Below are positions 2,217-14,436 of a DNA stretch of 64,000 nucleotides, piece after piece (the first letter of the stretch is position 1; each line of letters opens with the position of its first letter). This stretch comes from Sneathiella sp. HT1-7 (GTDB taxonomy: Bacteria > Pseudomonadota > Alphaproteobacteria > Sneathiellales > Sneathiellaceae). The translations under genes were made by a program, and so were the position numbers. The stretch is taken from the NCBI RefSeq assembly GCF_020731145.1, contig NZ_JAJFZN010000001.1, positions 744,001 through 808,000 on the forward strand. Direction: 5' to 3'. The notes beneath the pieces were generated by a model that saw only the letters and a list, made by a program, of their open reading frames with translations, had not been told where the DNA came from and did not search any database.

Positions 2217-3584
2217 TTATAACGGCTTAGGCATATCGGAAGATTGTTGCGCAGTTTGGATGGTCCCTTGCGGCATTTCAGGTGGCGCAGCCGCCGGCCG
2301 GCCGGTCCGCGCCGGAACCTCATTCCAGGCAACACCGGCACTAACCAGCATGCCTAGCAGAATATTTGTCAGGATCAATGGCTGTTCGAACAGGCCGACC
2401 GACATACTGGACACATCCAGCGCGATGAGGGCGGAAATCAGGAAGAAAATCAGTTTCCGGCGATACGGGTCCTTCGACGTCTTTCTGGTTTTCGCGCCAT
2501 AGCGCACCGCATTGACATGCGAGAACACATACATCAGGAAGGCCGGAATACCGCCATTGACCGCCACAATCACGAAATGATTGACCAAGTCGATATGACG
2601 CCGCCCGTCGAGCAGGCCACCCCAGTAATTAATGTCTATCCCGCTGGAACCAAAAATCCAATAGTCGCGCCACTGTTCCACCGCGACCTCCAGCAGGCGA
2701 GTACGGTACCACGCCGTTGTGGAGTTAAGCGCAAGATAGTCGATGAGATTGTAAAAATGCCGGTTCGACGCAAGCTCCAAAAATATGGCAAAAGCCAGCA
2801 TCACATAGAGTGTCGGCTTAATCAGGCTCGGGCGGAGAATATACAAATTGCAGAATATCAGCGTGACAATGGCAAGCCAAGGGCCGCTAGACATGGAGGC
2901 CAACCCACCAACCGCCGCAAAAAGGGCGGTAAAGGTGCTCATTTTTCGAACCCGCGGATTGGCGCGTATTGCCCAAGCGATCCCGGCGATTAGCATCATC
3001 GCCATGCCATAATAAATATGAACGGAGGTACTTACCTTCGCACGCATCATACCAAGACGGAATTCCGGCTCTTTCGCAATCCAGACCCAGGTCCGGTAAG
3101 AATCCAGACCAACGTAGGGTGATGTAGTCGTATAGGATTCCTGCCAGCCCATTACGCACATGAAGGCGGCGATCCCAAAGAGCGGCAGCGCAAGGCCGCC
3201 CGCATCCTGAATAGAGCGAATGCCGAGCCGGGCGACAAAATACATCAGGACGGTATCAAATCCGTAGCCAATCATCTCGATCGTTTTGTCAGATTCCGCC
3301 CCGGCCATCATTGTTGCAAGAACCGTCCATGCCCAGAGGAAAAAGACCAAATAATCGACCGAGCAGACATTTATTTTTGCGTTTCGGCCCTGAATAATGA
3401 ACCGGACCAGCAGCGCGAGGGCAATCAACCGAGGGGCAGACATATCCGCCGGACCAATTGGCACACGGAGATATTCCGGCCATATCATCATGGAAATGAT
3501 AAGAACGCCAATCGCCGCGCCCGGTCGCACCGAAAGTGCAAGCAGGCCCAGAGCGACTGCAACAAAGGCGGTTACACCGACCAT
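2217..3584 (-). CDS. O-antigen ligase / Wzy-like polysaccharide polymerase, multi-pass membrane protein
   Basis: The 455-residue protein is strongly hydrophobic with about ten to twelve predicted membrane segments and one larger loop near residues 285-330, the layout of the O-antigen ligase/polymerase (Wzy_C) family. The C-terminal 35 residues are polar and Pro/Gln rich. The likely job is polymerising or ligating lipid-linked repeat units on the periplasmic face. Sequence alone does not separate polymerase from ligase. The ATG at 3584 shares one base with the stop codon of the upstream FrhB-like gene, so the two are probably translationally coupled. Confidence 0.8.
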   Translation of the reverse strand: MVGVTAFVAVALGLLALSVRPGAAIGVLIISMMIWPEYLRVPIGPADMSAPRLIALALLVRFIIQGRNAKINVCSVDYLVFFLWAWTVLATMMAGAESDKTIEMIGYGFDTVLMYFVARLGIRSIQDAGGLALPLFGIAAFMCVMGWQESYTTTSPYVGLDSYRTWVWIAKEPEFRLGMMRAKVSTSVHIYYGMAMMLIAGIAWAIRANPRVRKMSTFTALFAAVGGLASMSSGPWLAIVTLIFCNLYILRPSLIKPTLYVMLAFAIFLELASNRHFYNLIDYLALNSTTAWYRTRLLEVAVEQWRDYWIFGSSGIDINYWGGLLDGRRHIDLVNHFVIVAVNGGIPAFLMYVFSHVNAVRYGAKTRKTSKDPYRRKLIFFLISALIALDVSSMSVGLFEQPLILTNILLGMLVSAGVAWNEVPARTGRPAAAPPEMPQGTIQTAQQSSDMPKPL

Positions 3585-5692: not shown

Positions 5693-7132
5693 CTAAACCT
5701 GTGCTTCGGTCTGTGTGTGACCGGATTGCTTGAGCCATCTCACAAGATCCAGTGCAGAAAGCATAAACAGGCCCATCGCGACCAGTGTCAGCAAAATCGA
5801 TCCTCCAATTTCGAAAATCGGGTCCAGACCCGTTGCAAAATTGGCCGATAGAAAAATGGCCAAGACGACAAGTGAAATTGAAACTACGATAGATTTGTAA
5901 AGCAAAGATAAATCAATGCCAAATTTTCGCGTGAGCAAGAACAGGAAGAATATAACTGCCAAGGTTTCCCCGATAATACCGCCGATGACAATACCAAGAA
6001 CCCCCCAACCCTGCCATACCGCAACGAGAGCGAAAATCAGCGCAAAACTCCGCACGATATTCGCATAGAGGGGAAGTTTCGTTTTCCCGCAGGAAATGGC
6101 AATAATGGTCGGACCCGCTTTTGCCATACGAATACCCTGCATCAGGGCAAGCCAGGCAATGATCTCGACGCCGCCGACATAGTCGTTTCCGAACAATAGA
6201 AGTAAAAATGCCGGGCCTGCAAGCGCCAGCCCAACGCTGATGACGATACCAATCAACAGACAGGCCTGCGTGGTGGCGACAGCGCCCAGTCGCAGCTTTT
6301 CTGGATCATCCTGCACCTTGGAGAGCATCGGCATGAAAAACGACTGTGCCGCATTGGCGAAAACCATCGAGGGAAATAAGGTGAGAGTGAAGGCCGCGCT
6401 GAACCAGCCGAGATCTTCCATGCTGTAGGCAATACCAACGATACCACGGTCCGCCTGAAAAATACCGAACAACAGGAGCCCATTCAGCATTAACGGCCAG
6501 CCGAATGAAAAAATCCTGTTAAGATACTTCCGGTTGAGCTTGGCGGAATATCGCCGCTTTGCAACAAGGAAGGAAAGAACCACAGTGAAGACTGCCTGCA
6601 CCGTGATGATCCACAACATCACCCGGTAGTCCTTGAAATACAGGGCGAGCGGAGCGGCCAGCGCAACCGCAATAATCTGCGGCACACTCTCTACAAGAAC
6701 CGACGGACCAAAACTCATTTGACGCTGGAAGCGCGAGGCGTCCATATGCACAAAACCTGTAATTAACGGCAATACGGCCAACCATTGAAACGCCCAGATA
6801 AGCTCAGGCAGGTCAAAAAGATGAGCAATCGGGCTTGCTACCGCATACATGATTATGGCCAGCACAACCCCGCGCAGAATATTAAACGCCTGCACCGTTC
6901 CCTGGAGTTTTGGCTCGTTCCCGTCAGCCGCCTGAACAATCAGCCGGTCAACACCTAGGCCCGTGGACATTTGCACCAGTGCCATGGTAATGCCAAAGGT
7001 CGCTGCGATACCGAAATCTTCCACACTAATCAGCCGCGCGATGATGATATTGCGCGCGAAAGTGCTCAAAGCGCCGACGGCTCCTCCGAATGAGAGAAAC
7101 AGTCCGCTTCTTAGATGGCCCTTAAGTATCAC
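5693..7132 (-). CDS. Wzx-type polysaccharide flippase (MOP superfamily)
   Basis: The 479-residue protein has about twelve to fourteen hydrophobic segments spaced as in the polysaccharide-export branch of the MOP flippases. It should flip undecaprenyl-linked repeat units from the cytoplasmic to the periplasmic side. The N-terminal pattern (LFLSFGGAVGALSTFARNIIIARL) is characteristic of the family. The start is GTG at 7132, with a GAAAGG-like ribosome site upstream. It lies 18 bases after the pyruvyl transferase, so the repeat unit is probably pyruvylated before flipping. Confidence 0.87.
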   Translation of the reverse strand: MILKGHLRSGLFLSFGGAVGALSTFARNIIIARLISVEDFGIAATFGITMALVQMSTGLGVDRLIVQAADGNEPKLQGTVQAFNILRGVVLAIIMYAVASPIAHLFDLPELIWAFQWLAVLPLITGFVHMDASRFQRQMSFGPSVLVESVPQIIAVALAAPLALYFKDYRVMLWIITVQAVFTVVLSFLVAKRRYSAKLNRKYLNRIFSFGWPLMLNGLLLFGIFQADRGIVGIAYSMEDLGWFSAAFTLTLFPSMVFANAAQSFFMPMLSKVQDDPEKLRLGAVATTQACLLIGIVISVGLALAGPAFLLLLFGNDYVGGVEIIAWLALMQGIRMAKAGPTIIAISCGKTKLPLYANIVRSFALIFALVAVWQGWGVLGIVIGGIIGETLAVIFFLFLLTRKFGIDLSLLYKSIVVSISLVVLAIFLSANFATGLDPIFEIGGSILLTLVAMGLFMLSALDLVRWLKQSGHTQTEAQV

Positions 7133-7150: not shown

Positions 7151-8473
7151 TTAATTGTTCTTGCTAGCGACAATATCCAGAATGTAATTGGAAATGATCG
7201 ACATCTGTTCATCAACACGCCGCTTTACTTCGGGAAGTGAATTTTCCAGAGATGCGTGGAGGTCGCCACGCCGCAAAAGCGAGCCTTTCAAGCTCTCTAT
7301 CACATCCTGGGTATTCAACGTTCGAGGATCAAAAACCTCATCGCCCTGACCGCATGTTTCAAATACGCCTTTAGTCTTGTCACTATAAGCAATGGAGGTG
7401 GTAGGAACACCCCGTGAAAGCGCCGCGATTGTCGAATGCATTCGGGTTCCGCAGAACCAGTCCATATTCGAGATCAGCCATTTCACCTGATTCTGATCGA
7501 GCGTATCAGGCGAGACAAATACCCTGTCTTTAAATTTGTCCCCAACCCTCATCGCCACTTTTTCGCAGGCTGCATAGTCGGATTCAATATATTGGCGGTC
7601 ACTCATGACATGAGGGATAAGAACAAGGTTCGCATCAGTTTCCGCAAGCAGCCAATCGCAAAACTCATGAATAATCTCGTTATAATTCGCCTTAAATCCA
7701 TATTGGGACACGGCTGCATTGGGGTCGTTATATATAAGGCCGCTTACATTCAAACCGACAAGCGGTTTTCCTGGCCGTTTTTCCTGAATCACCTGACGAA
7801 GGGGTGGATCAATCATTTCCTCGGCGCTTCGGATCCCTAATGCGAAAGCGAAATCCACGCCGCTTCTATGACGCGCAGGATCAAACTGTTCGCCTAGCAT
7901 ATTTTTAAGTATCTCATAGCTGTTCGGATCGCGCGCCCAAGCCATATCCGCACCCTTGACCGCTTTAATGGCAATCCGGTTGAACTTCGGATCATAGTAA
8001 GGGCCGTAGGTTTGCGGCAATAGTATAAGCGGAACGTGCCTTTTCAGGGAAATCAGCTTTGGGCGAACAACGCTCATAAAACGCTTCTCGCCATAGATGT
8101 CACTAAAACTGTCGCCACCGGAGATATCAAGGACCACGTCAAAATTGTCGATATCCCGAACGACGGAATTCATCATCCCGCCCAATACGCCCAAATGCGA
8201 GAGCGCAGAAATTGCGACAATATTTTCCGGCAGGTAGTAGCGATGCCCGGCGCGAATACCGATATGCTCTACCTCAAACTTATGACCATCGGAAAAATGA
8301 TGGATCTCGGAACGCTTGCCGAGTTTATTATCAAAGACGGCAAAGTGGGCATTGGGCACCCGTTCCGTTATTCCTTCGACGGTCGACGCGAAAAGAGCGG
8401 AGACACCCATATTCGACGTATCCGGCGCCGCCCCGAATAACCCGATTTTTATTCCAGATTTACTATCGGACAT
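7151..8473 (-). CDS. Polysaccharide pyruvyl transferase family protein
   Basis: The 440-residue protein shows the family layout. It starts with a GLFGAAPDTSNMGVSAL segment, has the LDISGGDSFSDIYG motif near residue 115, and near the C-terminus the RMHSTIAALSRGVPTTSIAYSDK signature. Members move a ketal pyruvate from phosphoenolpyruvate onto a sugar, giving the polymer negative charge; some members have other roles. It is flanked by the exosortase-EpsI gene and the flippase in an unbroken minus-strand run. Which sugar is modified cannot be read. Confidence 0.87.
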   Translation of the reverse strand: MSDSKSGIKIGLFGAAPDTSNMGVSALFASTVEGITERVPNAHFAVFDNKLGKRSEIHHFSDGHKFEVEHIGIRAGHRYYLPENIVAISALSHLGVLGGMMNSVVRDIDNFDVVLDISGGDSFSDIYGEKRFMSVVRPKLISLKRHVPLILLPQTYGPYYDPKFNRIAIKAVKGADMAWARDPNSYEILKNMLGEQFDPARHRSGVDFAFALGIRSAEEMIDPPLRQVIQEKRPGKPLVGLNVSGLIYNDPNAAVSQYGFKANYNEIIHEFCDWLLAETDANLVLIPHVMSDRQYIESDYAACEKVAMRVGDKFKDRVFVSPDTLDQNQVKWLISNMDWFCGTRMHSTIAALSRGVPTTSIAYSDKTKGVFETCGQGDEVFDPRTLNTQDVIESLKGSLLRRGDLHASLENSLPEVKRRVDEQMSIISNYILDIVASKNN

Positions 8474-8509: not shown

Positions 8510-10051
8510 CTAGTCCGGTACATATACCGGAAGAACCTTAAACAACTCTTTTGAAAAGGCCGTTAATTCTGCATCCGCCTGTGCCTCCGTCATATTTGCC
8601 TTTATCGGCATCAATAACCGGATGAGCGAACCGTCCGTCCGGGCAGAGGAAAGCCCGCCCAACAACAGATTGAACTTCGCCTTATATTCATTCGCGATAT
8701 ACTTACCACGCTGCTTGAACCAGTAATATACCAGCAGCCTGTCCTCGCCATGAGTAACAAGCACCCGGTTGACCGGCACCTCATTCGCGCCATTTTTCAG
8801 CGTGATTTCCGACAGATTCTCTATTTTCCAACCGCCGGAGGGAATGCAAACGCGCGGCGAATGCGGTGTGCTTCCGGCAGATTGCCGATCATAGTACCCT
8901 ATAAACAGGGTTATCGGCAGCACTTCGCCCCCACGGTAATGACCGAGGAAATAATCGCTCATATTGAGGATGGTCTGCTCCACCTTGGGGAGCACGTCTT
9001 CCTCGGCGATCATATCATTGATCCTGAGCGGAAAGCTGTTAAACATTTTTCGGTCCGGGATTTCCGGCTCTATTCCCCGGATCATGACGATTGCAGGAGC
9101 AAAAGCAGCACAGAGCAGCAACGCACCGACAATCGGCCCGACGCGCACTGATTTTTCCGTTTGTTCCGCCGCAGGAACAGATGCCTTCAGGACACCGCCG
9201 CCAAGCGTTGCTTTTTCGTGCTTGTTGAGCGTCAGATAGCAGATTACCATCATAACGGCGAAGGAGAACAGGAAGAAAACCCAGCCTTCAAAGAGATGGA
9301 AAAACCCGTCCGAGACTGCCGTATCTGTCCATTCCGCAAAGGCCCCGGTCAGGAATATCCGGATGCTGTTCATAACAATGGAAACAATGCCCGCAATGAC
9401 TACAAACAGGGCCCGCTTCCAAAGCGGTATGTCGAACAGCATTGCCAGAAGGACACCCAGCCCAATCATCGGATAAAGATATCGCAAGCCTGCACACGCC
9501 TCTACAACCGCCAGTTTGATGGTACCCATATCAATGATATTTCCATCCTGATAGACGGAGATACCGGCAAGTCGCAAAAGAGCAACGCTCATATCCGTAG
9601 AAAGAAGCTGCAATCCATATGTCAGGTTGGCATTCAGAAAGGCGGGCGGTGGCACCACAAAGGGTAGCAGGATAAGTGACGGCAGCACATAACGGCCATA
9701 GGTTACGCCGCCAAACACAACGAAAAGCCCGAGAATCGTCAGAAACAGGCTGAGATGGCGGACATTCTCAATCCCCGCCTTAACCGCCAGAGCATATACC
9801 GCCATCGAGATCAGGCAGAAAACAAGCCCAATCCAGTTCCCGCGCGTGTCATGTGAAGAGAGAAGGTCTCGCCGCGCCCAAAGAAGATAAAGCGCAACTG
9901 CCAACATCAGGGGGCCGTGACTGAATTCTTCAACATTCATCCAGTCATCCCACAGCAGCAGGCCGTCGGGTATATAGATCAGGAAAACCAAGCACAGAAG
10001 AACTGGCAACAACAGTCGTGTTCGGTCAATCCGTTGTAGGGCCAGTTCCAT
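8510..10051 (-). CDS. Exosortase fused to an EpsI domain (XrtD-like)
   Basis: Residues 1-275 form a multi-pass membrane domain with the exosortase catalytic residues: Cys186 in EACAGLR, Arg231 in MNSIRI and His252 in FFHLFEGW. Residues of about 310-513 after the last membrane segment match the periplasmic EpsI domain (HSPRVCIPSGGWKIE). The 513-residue fused form is the arrangement I associate with XrtD-type enzymes. Exosortases cut and transfer proteins that carry a short C-terminal sorting tail (PEP-CTERM, VPLPA-CTERM and similar). No protein with such a tail was recognised in this window. The ATG at 10051 has AGAGGA just upstream. Exosortase is secure; the subtype is less so. Confidence 0.88.
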   Translation of the reverse strand: MELALQRIDRTRLLLPVLLCLVFLIYIPDGLLLWDDWMNVEEFSHGPLMLAVALYLLWARRDLLSSHDTRGNWIGLVFCLISMAVYALAVKAGIENVRHLSLFLTILGLFVVFGGVTYGRYVLPSLILLPFVVPPPAFLNANLTYGLQLLSTDMSVALLRLAGISVYQDGNIIDMGTIKLAVVEACAGLRYLYPMIGLGVLLAMLFDIPLWKRALFVVIAGIVSIVMNSIRIFLTGAFAEWTDTAVSDGFFHLFEGWVFFLFSFAVMMVICYLTLNKHEKATLGGGVLKASVPAAEQTEKSVRVGPIVGALLLCAAFAPAIVMIRGIEPEIPDRKMFNSFPLRINDMIAEEDVLPKVEQTILNMSDYFLGHYRGGEVLPITLFIGYYDRQSAGSTPHSPRVCIPSGGWKIENLSEITLKNGANEVPVNRVLVTHGEDRLLVYYWFKQRGKYIANEYKAKFNLLLGGLSSARTDGSLIRLLMPIKANMTEAQADAELTAFSKELFKVLPVYVPD

Positions 10052-10138: not shown

Positions 10139-10954
10139 CTAGTAATAGTAAGTTTTAGCGATTTCCTCTGATTTATTCAGAACGACGCCCAAGAGGTTAC
10201 TCGATTGAAGCTGACGACGGCAATCCTTGACTTCGCTGGGCTTAGTTTCCCCGCTGGCCACTACCATTAACACGCAATCAACCTGCGGAATAAAGGCAAT
10301 GGCATCGTCCGTCGCGTTAAGCGGCGGCAAATCAAAAATACAGATACGCTTCTCATAGCGATCCCGAAGGTCCGCCACCATGGATTTTACCTTGCGTGAT
10401 GTCAGAATTTCAGTTGAATTCTTAACCGGCCGGCGGTTTGGCAGAACCACAAACCGGGGAATGCCCGGGTTCACCAAGGCATCATTAAACTCGATCTTGC
10501 CATCGAGATAATCGGCAAAGCTATTCTCTTTTGGCAACCCCAGATAGGCAGCCACTTGCGGCCGGCGCAAATCAAAATCGACAAGAAGTGCAGTATAGTC
10601 CGTTTGCTTGGCAATACTGAGAGCCAGATTGATCGAGACAACCGTTTTACCGCATGCCTGCGTTGGCGACGTTATGGCGAGCGTCCGCCAGTTATTCGCC
10701 TCCATCTTCGCCAGAACCTGCGTCCTCAAAATATCAAAGCTGATTGAGTTGGGATCTTCGCTGTCCAAGGTAATGATTCTGTTTTCTTCCAGATGTGCCA
10801 TATTGAGATCGACAACACGTGTCTGGTTGTAAACGATCGGGCCTTCGACAATCTCCGCGTTGCGTGTCGCCCTCTTCGTGGCGCCTGTACGCTCCGAAAG
10901 ACCGCCCACCTGCTTTTCTTTGGCCTTGGCAATGGCTTCCTTAATACGTTCCAC
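10139..10954 (-). CDS. CpsD/CapB-like tyrosine autokinase of the polysaccharide export system
   Basis: The 271-residue protein is a BY-kinase-type P-loop ATPase. It has a Walker A-like stretch SPTQACGKT (residues 96-104), a Walker A' segment LLVDFDLRRP (124-132), a Walker B-like FDLPP, and a C-terminal run of three tyrosines (269-271) as autophosphorylation sites. The usual PGEGKS/T sequence is altered to TQACGKT, though Lys103 and Thr104 remain. It should cycle between phosphorylated and free forms with the neighbouring Wzc-like protein to control polymer length. The start is GTG at 10954 with GGGG seven bases upstream, 12 bases after the wzc-like stop. Confidence 0.88.
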   Translation of the reverse strand: MERIKEAIAKAKEKQVGGLSERTGATKRATRNAEIVEGPIVYNQTRVVDLNMAHLEENRIITLDSEDPNSISFDILRTQVLAKMEANNWRTLAITSPTQACGKTVVSINLALSIAKQTDYTALLVDFDLRRPQVAAYLGLPKENSFADYLDGKIEFNDALVNPGIPRFVVLPNRRPVKNSTEILTSRKVKSMVADLRDRYEKRICIFDLPPLNATDDAIAFIPQVDCVLMVVASGETKPSEVKDCRRQLQSSNLLGVVLNKSEEIAKTYYY

Positions 10955-10966
10955 GTCAGTCCCCTC

Positions 10967-12607
10967 TTAAAATGCGACCAATAGTCTATCGATAGCCACC
11001 CAGGCCGAGTAAAATAGATCGTCCAACGGCTGGTAAAAATAATGTACCGCCGCGAGTAACAGGGCAACCAGAGCAACCGGGATAAGAAGATACATAAAAA
11101 TCTTCATCCGGTTCTGCACATTCTCTTTACGTGTGTGAATATACGGTATGGATACGATAGGCGGATGCTTAAGCACCGCTTCCAGCTCAGATGCGCTGTG
11201 GATTCTCCGGTCGATCAATTCGATCAGGAAGACGCAAGCGACTCCGACAACAAGCGCGAGAAACCCACCAATACCCAAAATCTTCTTTCTGTCCGGGGAA
11301 ACCGGCTCTGTCGGTACGACTGGCGGTTCGAGCAGAACAAAACGTTCCGCCTTCTTTTCTTCTTCAAGATTCTGTGAGAGTTGCGCTTGTGCCTGCTTCG
11401 ATTCGAGAGAGTTCAACTTATCCAGCAAATCTGTATAAGTCCGATCCAGAACGGTCAAGCCGCGTTCAACCTGCGGAATTTCGAGGATGACCCCTTCAAG
11501 CTCCTTCATCTTTGTAGTGGCTGCCGAGATTTGACGACGCGTTTCCGCAATTTTATCATCTGTCGCCGCGATGCGAATCTGAAGTTTTTCAACGACAGGA
11601 TTATACACACTGCTCGCTACTGATTGGTCCTGGGCCGTCGCTGCACGCGCAGCGGCTGCTTCCTGCTCAACTTGCTGTTCCAGGGCCGCGATACGCTTTT
11701 TCAGTGCCATAATATCTGGATGTGAATCCGTCAGCCGTGTGGAAGCATCCAACAGGCTGTCTTTCAAGGTAGAGAGGTTTTGCGCTAGCTCAGACTGTTC
11801 GCCGCCACTAGCAGTAAGGCCCGACCGGGCAGAAGTAAGTTCAATTTCCAGATAGCGTTTGTCTTCTTGAAGTGCGCGCAAATCACGGCGCAGATCGCGA
11901 ATTTGATCTTCCGATCTATCCAGCATGCTCTGACGCAGGCCGAGGTGCTCTGGCAGAGCGTCCTTATATTTCTGTTTATAGGCGACAATTTCACTTTCAA
12001 CCTGGGTCAATTGACGGCGAACTTTATCAGCCTCATCGGTGAGAAAAGCCGTTGCTTCAGTTGCCCGCTCGGTCCGCGTGCGCACATTTTCACTCAGGAA
12101 CAATGTGACCAGTTCATTGGCTACATCGGTCGCAATCTGCGGATTTTCATGGCTAAACCCGACATAGAAAGCGATCGTCGTCTCCCTCCGCCTGTTTCCG
12201 GAAAAAGATGAGGTGATCACATCAATCGCAATGTTATCCTGCATCTTGAAGACAAGCTCGGATACCGTCAGAAATTTTCTGTCATCTCCATAGACGTTGA
12301 ATTTGTCGATAATTTTCAGCAGATTCTCCCGGGTCATCACCCGTTGTTCAATCATCCGGATACGTTGGTCTGGATCGGTACTAACGGTCGATTCAATAAG
12401 ATCGGGTGAGATTTGCTGCGTTTCGACAAGAATAGTGCCGTAGGAGCTATAATGCGGCGGCAAAATCAGGATCACCGCGACGGCGCCGGCCAAAACCAGA
12501 ACGAACGGAATCAGAAAGAACAGAAACCGCCTCTTGGCAGCAGAAACGATCCGCTCAAAATTGATCGGCGAAGCTTCTTCTTCGGGGAGTGTAAAATCTT
12601 GGCTCAT
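10967..12607 (-). CDS. Wzc/Wzz-type polysaccharide chain-length determinant protein
   Basis: The 546-residue protein has an N-terminal membrane segment (about 30-52), a Wzz domain, a long periplasmic part with coiled-coil-like stretches (about 165-410), a Pro-rich PVVPTEPVSPDRKK element and a second membrane segment (about 440-462). A further hydrophobic segment lies near the C-terminus. It lacks the cytoplasmic kinase domain of one-piece Wzc; the next gene supplies the kinase, as in exosortase-associated loci. The role is control of polymer length and export together with an outer-membrane channel not seen here. A candidate promoter lies about 80 bases upstream. Confidence 0.9.
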   Translation of the reverse strand: MSQDFTLPEEEASPINFERIVSAAKRRFLFFLIPFVLVLAGAVAVILILPPHYSSYGTILVETQQISPDLIESTVSTDPDQRIRMIEQRVMTRENLLKIIDKFNVYGDDRKFLTVSELVFKMQDNIAIDVITSSFSGNRRRETTIAFYVGFSHENPQIATDVANELVTLFLSENVRTRTERATEATAFLTDEADKVRRQLTQVESEIVAYKQKYKDALPEHLGLRQSMLDRSEDQIRDLRRDLRALQEDKRYLEIELTSARSGLTASGGEQSELAQNLSTLKDSLLDASTRLTDSHPDIMALKKRIAALEQQVEQEAAAARAATAQDQSVASSVYNPVVEKLQIRIAATDDKIAETRRQISAATTKMKELEGVILEIPQVERGLTVLDRTYTDLLDKLNSLESKQAQAQLSQNLEEEKKAERFVLLEPPVVPTEPVSPDRKKILGIGGFLALVVGVACVFLIELIDRRIHSASELEAVLKHPPIVSIPYIHTRKENVQNRMKIFMYLLIPVALVALLLAAVHYFYQPLDDLFYSAWVAIDRLLVAF

Positions 12608-12921
12608 TCTATTGCTCGGAATTTTTTCAATTCAATCGTTCAAATTAATTTCTGGTCGACGTCTTGTAAGTCGCCCTTATGGTTAAAATTTTACAACCAT
12701 TCGAGCCGATCAACAAATGCCACATGCCTTTTTAGGCTCAAAGAGTTAAGGAATGGTTGGTAACTGATATAAATTGGCAACATTGCGCTAAATCTTAACG
12801 TTTTTCGCAGCAAAAAATATGCCCGGACAAAACTCCCGCCTGAGAAACTATACGGGAAACAACCAACAGTTCATGCCCTCTTTCTCAGCGTCAAAGGGGC
12901 AAATGTCAAGGATTGATACGG
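12608..12921. other. 314-base gap between the chain-length gene and the initiating transferase gene
   Basis: No convincing reading frame lies here. The gap is AT-rich near the chain-length gene and holds one good promoter-like pair on the minus strand (12688-12716). The part near 12860-12920 can fold into an imperfect GCCC/GGGC hairpin, but there is no T-run, so I do not call a terminator. The gap suggests the chain-length-to-asnB run is at least partly transcribed separately from the sugar transferase gene. Confidence 0.5.
12688..12716 (-). promoter_or_regulatory. Candidate sigma-70-type promoter for the chain-length/exosortase operon
   Basis: Read on the minus strand, TTGTTG (12711-12716) is followed after exactly 17 bases by TAAAAT (12688-12693). 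This lies about 80 bases before the ATG of the chain-length gene. It is a sequence match only. Confidence 0.45.
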
Positions 12922-14436
12922 TCAATAGGCGTTTTTATTAACGAAACCGACAAAGACCGTCATGACCAATATTTGAAGATCAAAGAACAACGACCAGTTC
13001 TCGACATAATATGTATCGTAATTCACCCTGGCTTCCATTTTCTCCAGCGTATCCGTCTCCCCGCGATATCCCTTTACCTGCGCCCAGCCGGTAATCCCCG
13101 GCTTCACCTTATGGCGGGCGAAATAGCCTTCGATCAGTTCAGAATATTCCTCGTTGTGATCTACGGCATGGGGGCGCGGACCAACAAGCGACATCGTTCC
13201 GTTGACGACATTGAAAAGCTGCGGCAACTCATCCAAGCTGGTCCGGCGGATAAATTTTCCAACCCGGGTTATGCGCGGATCATCTTTTGAGGCCTGGACA
13301 GTCTTTTTGCCTACCGCGCCATCATGATACATGGAGCGGAATTTATAGATCTCGAATACCTTGTTGTTATAGCCATAGCGTTTTTGCTTAAACAACACCG
13401 GCCCCTTGCTCTCCAGCTTGATCGCGATAACAACTGCCAGCAAGAGTGGGGAAAACAGAAGGAGTGCCAATGAACCCAGAATACGATCTTCCAGTGCCTT
13501 CACGACAATCTTGAATCCGGAAAGCGGCGAATCCACCACTTCAATCATTGGCAAGCCGCCAAAATGGTTAGGGGATGGCCGATGCGGAAAACGAAAGCCG
13601 ACAAGATCAGACACCAAATGGACATGAGCCGGAAGTTCACGCAGCCGACGGACAATTTCCATCTGACGCTCATCCGCGTTCCACGGTAGTGCGACAATGA
13701 TATCGTCAACACGGTTTTCGCGGACGAATTTTATCAGTGCCTCAATATTCCCGAGGAGGGAATGTCCGGCAACCGTAGGGCCGACGCGGCCAATGCGATC
13801 GTCGAAGATACCGACAACCTTATTAACCGTTGGCTTTTCATTTTCGAGCTGGCGCAATAGCTGTTCTGTCTGCTTTCCGCCGCCAAGAACAACGACTTTA
13901 CGTGTGCAAACTCCCCGATTGGCCAGATAATTGATGATAATAAAAGCGATCAGCCGATACGACAGAATGACAACGAAGGAAGTTAAGGCGAAACTATACA
14001 TCCAGATCCGCGAATATTCCTCAGATACCTTGAGTGAGAAAGCCACCGCCAGCAGCAGCATGAAGGTTGTGAGGCAAACAATGGCAAGGTTCGGCAGGTT
14101 GGTAAGCGGCGCAAGCAGTGTCGAAAAGGAGTAGATCCGCGCATAATGTCCAAGGAAGAAAAAGATGATTATCGCCAGGATAACCGCATACAGATAGTAT
14201 TCATGGGCAAACAAACTGCCGCCAATCACGAAATAATGGCTGAGAAATCCGGCCAAAAATAGCCACAAAAGATCAAGTACGGAGAAAATCGGGGACAAGA
14301 CGCCCGAAGATAGAGGGTATCCGCCACTATATGCAGAGTCATGCTCGGTAGCAATTTTTTTGCTGTTCAGACCGTTATCCGGAATCTTATTCAACGAAAT
14401 TTCTCCGACAACAGGCGCCCGTAAATCCTGCTTCAA
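12922..14436 (-). CDS. Undecaprenyl-phosphate sugar phosphotransferase (WcaJ/ExoY-type initiating enzyme)
   Basis: The 504-residue protein has four membrane segments in residues 45-170, a nucleotide-binding-fold domain with VVVLGGGKQTEQLL (about 185-300), and a C-terminal bacterial sugar transferase domain. The last carries KRYGYNNKVFEIYKFRSM, the RRTSLDELPQLFNV motif and SLVGPRPHA. It loads the first sugar phosphate, often glucose, onto undecaprenyl phosphate and so starts repeat-unit synthesis at the inner membrane. No ATG precedes the first membrane segment, and the annotated start is TTG at 14436 without a clear ribosome site, so the exact N-terminus is uncertain. It is the promoter-proximal gene of the locus. 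Confidence 0.9.
   Translation of the reverse strand: MKQDLRAPVVGEISLNKIPDNGLNSKKIATEHDSAYSGGYPLSSGVLSPIFSVLDLLWLFLAGFLSHYFVIGGSLFAHEYYLYAVILAIIIFFFLGHYARIYSFSTLLAPLTNLPNLAIVCLTTFMLLLAVAFSLKVSEEYSRIWMYSFALTSFVVILSYRLIAFIIINYLANRGVCTRKVVVLGGGKQTEQLLRQLENEKPTVNKVVGIFDDRIGRVGPTVAGHSLLGNIEALIKFVRENRVDDIIVALPWNADERQMEIVRRLRELPAHVHLVSDLVGFRFPHRPSPNHFGGLPMIEVVDSPLSGFKIVVKALEDRILGSLALLLFSPLLLAVVIAIKLESKGPVLFKQKRYGYNNKVFEIYKFRSMYHDGAVGKKTVQASKDDPRITRVGKFIRRTSLDELPQLFNVVNGTMSLVGPRPHAVDHNEEYSELIEGYFARHKVKPGITGWAQVKGYRGETDTLEKMEARVNYDTYYVENWSLFFDLQILVMTVFVGFVNKNAY

Follow-up and report, generated by a model that had tools for sequence, protein, structure and literature searches.

A probable XrtD/VPLPA-CTERM sorting system in Sneathiella sp. 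HT1-7, with candidate targets scattered over the genome and a TTAAC[CT]AT box upstream of genus tail genes

The 64-kb stretch of Sneathiella sp. HT1-7 DNA analysed here (the window) holds, inside an exopolysaccharide (EPS) locus, a gene for an exosortase fused to an EpsI domain. The preliminary description of this DNA saw no sorting tail in the 64 kb and placed the targets of the enzyme elsewhere. Which proteins could these targets be, and what may connect them with the enzyme? The reading that we hold with high confidence, from sequence comparisons, is that of an XrtD/VPLPA-CTERM sorting system, with the enzyme encoded in the EPS locus and its substrates scattered over the genome. Searching for the targets has provided, within a single genome, a few candidate substrates that can be tested, together with a shared box upstream; for a specialist, the box may be the aspect worth pursuing. 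The exosortase gene and its parts lie as follows in the window.

8510..10051, minus strand: XrtD, exosortase-EpsI fusion of 513 aa with an ATG start (TIGR04152)
9239..9994, minus strand: transmembrane exosortase domain, residues 20-271 (PF09721, Exosortase_EpsH, 211.4 bits)
8528..9121, minus strand: EpsI / DUF3485 domain, residues 311-508 (PF11984, 159.2 bits)
9494..9496, minus strand: codon of Cys186, in the CAG motif (CxG)
9359..9361, minus strand: codon of Arg231, in the NSIR motif (NxxR, residues 228-231)
9296..9298, minus strand: codon of His252, in the HLFEG motif (HxxxG)

The open reading frame, the two domains and the Cys186/Arg231/His252 triad are all confirmed as first described, and each of the three residues is invariant in the ten aligned sequences, XrtD included. 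Against TIGR04152, the NCBIfam model of the VPLPA-CTERM-specific exosortase, XrtD scores 455.9 bits (cut-off 400) over model positions 3-486 of 486, and the alignment spans both the exosortase and the EpsI parts. The only other exosortase models whose cut-offs are reached are TIGR02602 (general) and TIGR04178 (signature). The EpsI region scores 117.7 bits against TIGR02914 (EpsI_fam, NCBIfam; cut-off 42.8). CxG, NxxR and HxxxG are given as the invariant motifs of the EpsH family in passages of Haft et al. 2006 (PMC1569441). The same passages already contain EpsH proteins with a C-terminal EpsI region, thus the exosortase-EpsI fusion is already known, and they include a genome with targets partly on another replicon. 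The suggestion that the fusion and its distant targets are something unusual is therefore not upheld; by its own curated model the window gene, taken alone, is an ordinary XrtD.

A single exosortase match at E <= 1, that of XrtD, is found in the HT1-7 genome. The nearest named relatives are six loci labelled Sneathiella, 79-91% identical, and five further loci come from metagenome bins that are unclassified or carry other labels, two being fragments at 92-93%. No solved structure resembles XrtD in sequence at E <= 1, and an AlphaFold model (mean pLDDT 55.5, pTM 0.38) was too poor for a fold search. The stretch HSPRVCIPSGGW (residues 397-408, in the EpsI part) is fully conserved. His397 and Cys402 are invariant in all ten aligned sequences and could be a second functional site.

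The surroundings of XrtD are those of an EPS locus, in agreement with the proposed link between a protein-sorting exosortase and a polysaccharide.

12922..14436, minus strand: undecaprenyl-phosphate glucose phosphotransferase, WcaJ type (TIGR03023, 512.1 bits, cut-off 410.75)
10967..12607, minus strand: chain-length determinant, first gene of the run chain-length gene, kinase, XrtD (TIGR03007, 270.5 bits, just below the cut-off of 278.85)
10139..10954, minus strand: polysaccharide tyrosine autokinase, XrtA-associated type (TIGR03018, 162.3 bits, below the cut-off of 230.65)
7151..8473, minus strand: polysaccharide pyruvyl transferase (PF04230, 89.4 bits)
5693..7132, minus strand: flippase, Wzx/MOP type (PF13440, 168.1 bits)
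2217..3584, minus strand: possible polymerase/ligase, weakly O-antigen ligase-like (PF04932, 23.8 bits, below the cut-off of 31.7)

The locus continues upstream of the window. There, an export protein (TIGR03027, 245.1 over 180) and an outer-membrane protein (TIGR03016, 179.9 over 90.85) pass their cut-offs, and an ATPase (TIGR03015, 284.7 under 324.5), a PrsT-like TPR protein (TIGR02917, 277.2 under 312.2) and an amidotransferase (TIGR03108, 397.9 under 816.9) do not. The parts of the locus thus resemble, by these models, the XrtA/PEP-CTERM module, with several falling below its cut-offs. All 16 loci compared, with L011 and L218 being one contig by length, have the order chain-length gene, kinase, XrtD. 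WcaJ precedes this run directly in most loci and with one gene between in L214 and L215, and the genes after XrtD differ from locus to locus. A tail gene adjoins WcaJ in two genomes, G011 (L214:8082-8711) and G018 (L192:255-893); that of G011 sits between WcaJ and the chain-length gene, a slot that in HT1-7 consists of 314 bases of intergenic DNA.

This setting bears on what the enzyme does with its substrates. XrtD might join them covalently to the exopolysaccharide or to a lipid-linked precursor, so that the targets decorate the polymer. The place of the gene in a polysaccharide locus and the kept gene order speak for this, as does a report, in passages of PMC9850573, that an Aquincola rpoN1 mutant has less soluble and more bound exopolysaccharide when a PEP-CTERM protein is over-expressed. 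The same facts fit a non-covalent binding, however, and for the archaeosortase ArtA, where a thioester step is proposed, it is instead a covalent lipid attachment of the substrate that is reported in sections of PMC7157517. Covalent attachment to the polymer is considered possible but rather unlikely.

To find the targets, the HT1-7 genome was searched with TIGR03370 (VPLPA-CTERM), with PF07589 (PEP-CTERM, Pfam) and with a tail profile of the genus, giving three, four and nine matches, respectively, at E <= 10. The genus profile was made from 15 genus tails, with T1 and T2 included and T3 and T4 absent, so the scores of T1 and T2 with it are circular. The four candidates lie outside the 64-kb window.

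C1:273958-274458: T1, 166 aa, signal-peptide-like start and VPLPA-type tail (TIGR03370)
C1:646351-646962: T2, 203 aa, signal-peptide-like start and VPLPA-type tail (TIGR03370, PF07589, NF050191)
C1:721377: T3, 118 aa, variant tail, 31 kb from XrtD (genus tail profile, E 0.024)
C4:753534: T4, doubtful (genus tail profile, E 3.8e-4)

The C-termini of T1 and T2 display a motif, a hydrophobic helix and basic residues, and their N-termini are signal-peptide-like by eye. The tail of T1 ends in IPLPAGFFLFLGGLGGIVLLGKLKK and that of T2 in VPLPAALPLYGAGLAVLGFFGWRKRRK, each followed by a few residues. No tail in the genome search passes the TIGR03370 cut-off of 25.35: T1 (C1:274345) falls just below it with 25.1 bits (E 1.2e-4), and T2 (C1:646384) reaches 17.9 bits. 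When scanned as single proteins, the two score 22.1 and 22.0 against the same model. T2 also matches PF07589, at 20.8 over 20.7 in the genome search but at 16.8 as a single protein, and its body matches NF050191 ("exosortase-dependent surface protein") with 35.5 bits over 29. For comparison, 7 of 14 control genomes match TIGR03370 and 13 match PF07589 at E <= 10, none over the cut-off. T3 ends in VPLSPALLLFGGALGAIFWLGRRRK plus ten residues and is without a match in any library scanned. T4 ends in LPGEAFILFMAALAGIAFLGRRRK plus seven residues, and its library matches are to unrelated models only, far below their cut-offs.

Several other matches were examined and set aside. The third TIGR03370 match (C4:93146, 13.8 bits) is not a tail, nor are the weak genus-profile matches at C6:411478, C1:1600, C5:425367, C1:758616 and C1:885523 C-terminal tails. 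At C1:758616 (E 2.55), the sole profile match inside the window, the helix is internal, and 107 residues follow its midpoint. The genome was also scanned at the DNA level for [VIM]P[LF]PA, which gave 61 matches versus 63 in the reversed control; taken alone, this pattern is therefore uninformative. Thirty of the 61 were inspected, and among them T1 and T2 are the only C-terminal tails that have a helix and basic end; the three pattern matches in the window are not tails. Thus, among matches to TIGR03370, PF07589 and the genus profile at E <= 10, the window contains no C-terminal sorting tail, and the earlier observation of a 64 kb free of tails holds as far as it was searched. T1 and T2 have a C-terminal motif followed by a helix and a basic end, the kind of tail for which the preliminary description had proposed a genome scan. 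Since fitting tails (T1, T2, the variant T3 and the doubtful T4) lie elsewhere in the genome, as had been foreseen for the targets, its reading is not refuted by a genome devoid of tails.

T1, T2, T3 and T4 each have relatives in the genus. In the 17 aligned relatives of T2, some of which are paralogues, the tail is better kept than the body, as judged by eye. Eight of the nine aligned T1 relatives have the tail. The exception, in G015 (L156, contig C37), stops before the tail, with the rest of the protein kept. The ten aligned T3 relatives display variant motifs. Among the nine aligned T4 relatives the VPLP core is found in two and is missing from seven, and one of the two with the core (L172, G020) is also matched by T3 as L140. 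From their sequences, T1 and T2 are fairly clear candidates for XrtD targets, T3 is a likely one, and T4 is doubtful. Near T3 and the EPS locus, the stretch L090:10540-19996 (C1:722539-731995) encodes a type I secretion ABC transporter (TIGR01842), an apparent HlyD-type partner recognized by eye, and a protein of 903 aa that has concanavalin A-like lectin domains.

The makeup of the candidates also bears on a second possibility for the fate of the substrates, whereby XrtD cuts off the tail and frees them as matrix proteins, without any acceptor. The pre-tail parts of T1-T3 are short, with a start that looks like a signal peptide by eye and with no other anchor in the library scans, as would suit released proteins. 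The Cys/Arg/His residues, on the other hand, were read in passages of Haft et al. 2006 (PMC1569441) as suggesting a sortase-like transfer. We regard release without an acceptor as possible but rather doubtful. In the XrtD/VPLPA-CTERM system favoured here, and going by the family, the substrates would be exported, then parked in the membrane by the tail helix, then cut at the VPLPA motif through Cys186, and then handed to an acceptor or to water; the EpsI domain may help in handling the acceptor or the substrate.

If tails and enzyme belong together, their distribution among genomes is of interest. One exosortase match each is found in 17 of 24 genomes of the genus (the XrtD gene of G007 being split over two contigs), and none in the other seven. 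All 17 exosortase-bearing genomes have T2 matches; 16 of these cover the body, and that of G010 is tail-only. Two genomes, G006 (84% complete) and G023 (92%), are without an exosortase and without any match to T1-T4 or TIGR03370. G013 has no tail at E <= 0.05 with TIGR03370, yet relatives of T1, T2 and T3 are present.

Tail matches without an exosortase are found in five genus genomes. G005, G009 and G016 are 56-66% complete, G015 is 94% and G018 is 99% complete. In G015, contig C41 stops inside the PrsT-like gene, ahead of the expected place of XrtD. For G018, the starts of contigs C1-C38 were examined (the first 9 kb or less of each), and contig C17 opens with the tail gene adjoining WcaJ; at the matching slot of G011, the tail gene is followed by the chain-length gene, the kinase and XrtD. 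Because contigs end in or at the locus in both G015 and G018, an assembly gap is the simpler reading, and these two were not retained as tail-bearing genomes that truly lack an exosortase. Their missing XrtD genes are likely to be assembly gaps. Outside the genus, in 71 genomes, five have both enzyme and tails, four the exosortase only and six tails only, and the pairing is loose at the thresholds used (TIGR04152 E <= 1e-10, tail E <= 0.05).

A further connection between the enzyme and its putative substrates may come from the DNA upstream of their genes. The word TTAAC[CT]AT first stood out as a kept box when the upstream regions of T1, T2 and T4 relatives were aligned. In the window it is found once.

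12679..12686, minus strand: TTAACCAT box, 79 bases before the chain-length gene, the sole TTAAC[CT]AT in the window

Ten copies are present in about 151 kb of HT1-7 DNA (the window plus five stretches, 1 kb being shared), and seven of them lie before T1, T2, T4 or the chain-length gene. For a count across the genus, 80 tail genes were collected with a tail pattern from 94 genus loci; they are a subset of the genus tails. The count excludes nine loci from other genera as well as L048, where no tail is present, and 22 loci gave no new tail gene (repeats or pattern misfits), including all T4 relatives. The box lies within 450 bases upstream of 53 of the 80 genes and downstream of two. In all, 87 copies are found in 34,542 upstream bases, three in 35,016 downstream bases and three in 47,061 coding bases. 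It is seen upstream of tail genes in L001, L002, L042, L047, most of L101-L114, L151-L155, L157, L158 and others. Where boxes are paired, the usual spacing is 13 bases (9 pairs) or 21 bases (11 pairs).

Could the box be an accident of AT-rich intergenic DNA, with no regulatory role? The intergenic DNA is indeed AT-rich, and the first count is not independent of the discovery, because the box was first seen in alignments of regions upstream of targets. However, 200 shuffles that preserve dinucleotides yield 3.91 box-bearing genes on average and 10 at most, against the 53 of 80 observed, and among all 8-mers, counted over a single representative of each family, those of the box come first, in 12 of 24. 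When families are formed by similarity of the protein body, 15 of 24 have the box in at least one member. As controls, 235 other ORFs were used (some control stretches overlap, L008 with L175 and L013 with L174), and only nine have the box upstream. Chain-length genes that open an XrtD run account for five of the nine (window, L004, L005, L008 and L013), and two share the T4 upstream region, being T4, which the tail pattern missed and which was thus counted among the controls, and its divergent neighbour; the remaining two lie in the G015 locus. An accidental origin of the box is accordingly judged very improbable.

The exact box lies at -77/-78 before the chain-length gene in L004, L005, L008 and L013, and within 400 bases before this gene in 6 of 17 loci (6 of 16 when the repeated contig is counted once). 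The box of L216 has another orientation and another distance. Taken together with the boxes before tail genes, this suggests from the sequences that the enzyme and its substrates may be switched on together. Should the box prove to be a real regulatory site, it may also help in recognizing substrates whose tails are unusual.

T3 differs in its upstream region. Its family has the TTAAC[CT]AT box in none of six, and instead a stretch of its own, CATATGAGGGATGC, is conserved roughly 100-130 bases before the start (relatives L125-L132; L090:9799). No exact copy of CATATGAGGGATGC is found in the window or in the other HT1-7 stretches scanned. A pair of words common to T1 and T3, ACGAAATAGGG and TCTAGGG, 41 bases apart, was dropped as a shared motif pair; elsewhere it recurs, with mismatches, only before the T1 relatives in G007 and G019, and as one loose match inside a window gene. 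A search of 10 tail loci against Rfam gave no matches, thus no known riboswitch is present in those 10 loci, and one simple sigma-54-like -24/-12 pattern has no match in the 500 bases before T1-T4.

The lack of the box before T3 relates to whether only T1 and T2 are substrates of XrtD, with T3 and T4 being plain single-helix membrane proteins that have similar C-termini. The T3 and T4 tails read VPLSPA, GLPGEA and similar, with no sorting model near its cut-off, and the box count and the separate kept stretch of the T3 family point the same way. Against this, T3-like VPLPPA tails are found on other, box-bearing proteins of the genus (e.g., L135, L139, L142, L144 and L148), T3 and XrtD share a contig, at a distance of 29-36 kb, in G001, G013, G017, G021 and G022, and T4 itself has the upstream box. 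A restriction of the substrates to T1 and T2 is thus conceivable, although we lean against it.

How does the system compare with those already known? The open-licence literature, outside of which most subscription papers lie, gave no paper on an exosortase with VPLPA-CTERM, on a Sneathiella exosortase, or on CtrA with an exosortase. With the XrtD/VPLPA-CTERM system as modelled by TIGR04152 and TIGR03370, HT1-7 shares the full-length enzyme match, EpsI part included, and the VPLPA-type tails. It differs in the small number of targets, two being fairly clear and up to four in total, versus up to 15 TIGR03370 matches (E <= 0.05) in members of the genus.

With the XrtA/PEP-CTERM system (EpsH, EpsI, PrsT and PrsK/PrsR in Haft et al. 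2006), the likeness extends to the EPS locus with its export and outer-membrane proteins, to the PrsT-like TPR protein and the ATPase, both below cut-off, and to target genes with upstream gaps, here of about 0.3-0.8 kb. The motif is PEP in that system and VPLPA here. As for the DNA before the targets, a sigma-54/PrsR motif is described for that system, and a shared TTAAC[CT]AT box is seen here. For one other genus, c-di-GMP riboswitches are listed for exosortase substrates. The box, if a true regulatory site, would be a further switch for exosortase substrates, besides the sigma-54/PrsR promoter and the c-di-GMP riboswitches.

A third comparison is with the CtrA regulon. The CtrA half-site TTAACCAT, as passages of PMC3692519 and PMC6180460 give it, is contained in the box, which lies before the 53 of 80 tail genes counted above. 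In the full CtrA site, TTAA-N7-TTAA, the TTAA words are 11 apart, versus the 13 or 21 of most paired boxes here, and a passage of PMC3692519 warns that CtrA-like sequences need not mean control by CtrA. Because of this spacing and this warning, CtrA is named only as a first candidate for the regulator that may act on the box. The Sneathiella VPLPA-CTERM proteins and, in close relatives, the exosortase run might then form one TTAAC[CT]AT regulon, perhaps under CtrA control, a tentative proposal to which we give somewhat less than an even chance. If it is true, the sorting of matrix proteins would be coupled to the cell cycle or to a motile/sessile switch, and not to a sigma-54/PrsR system.
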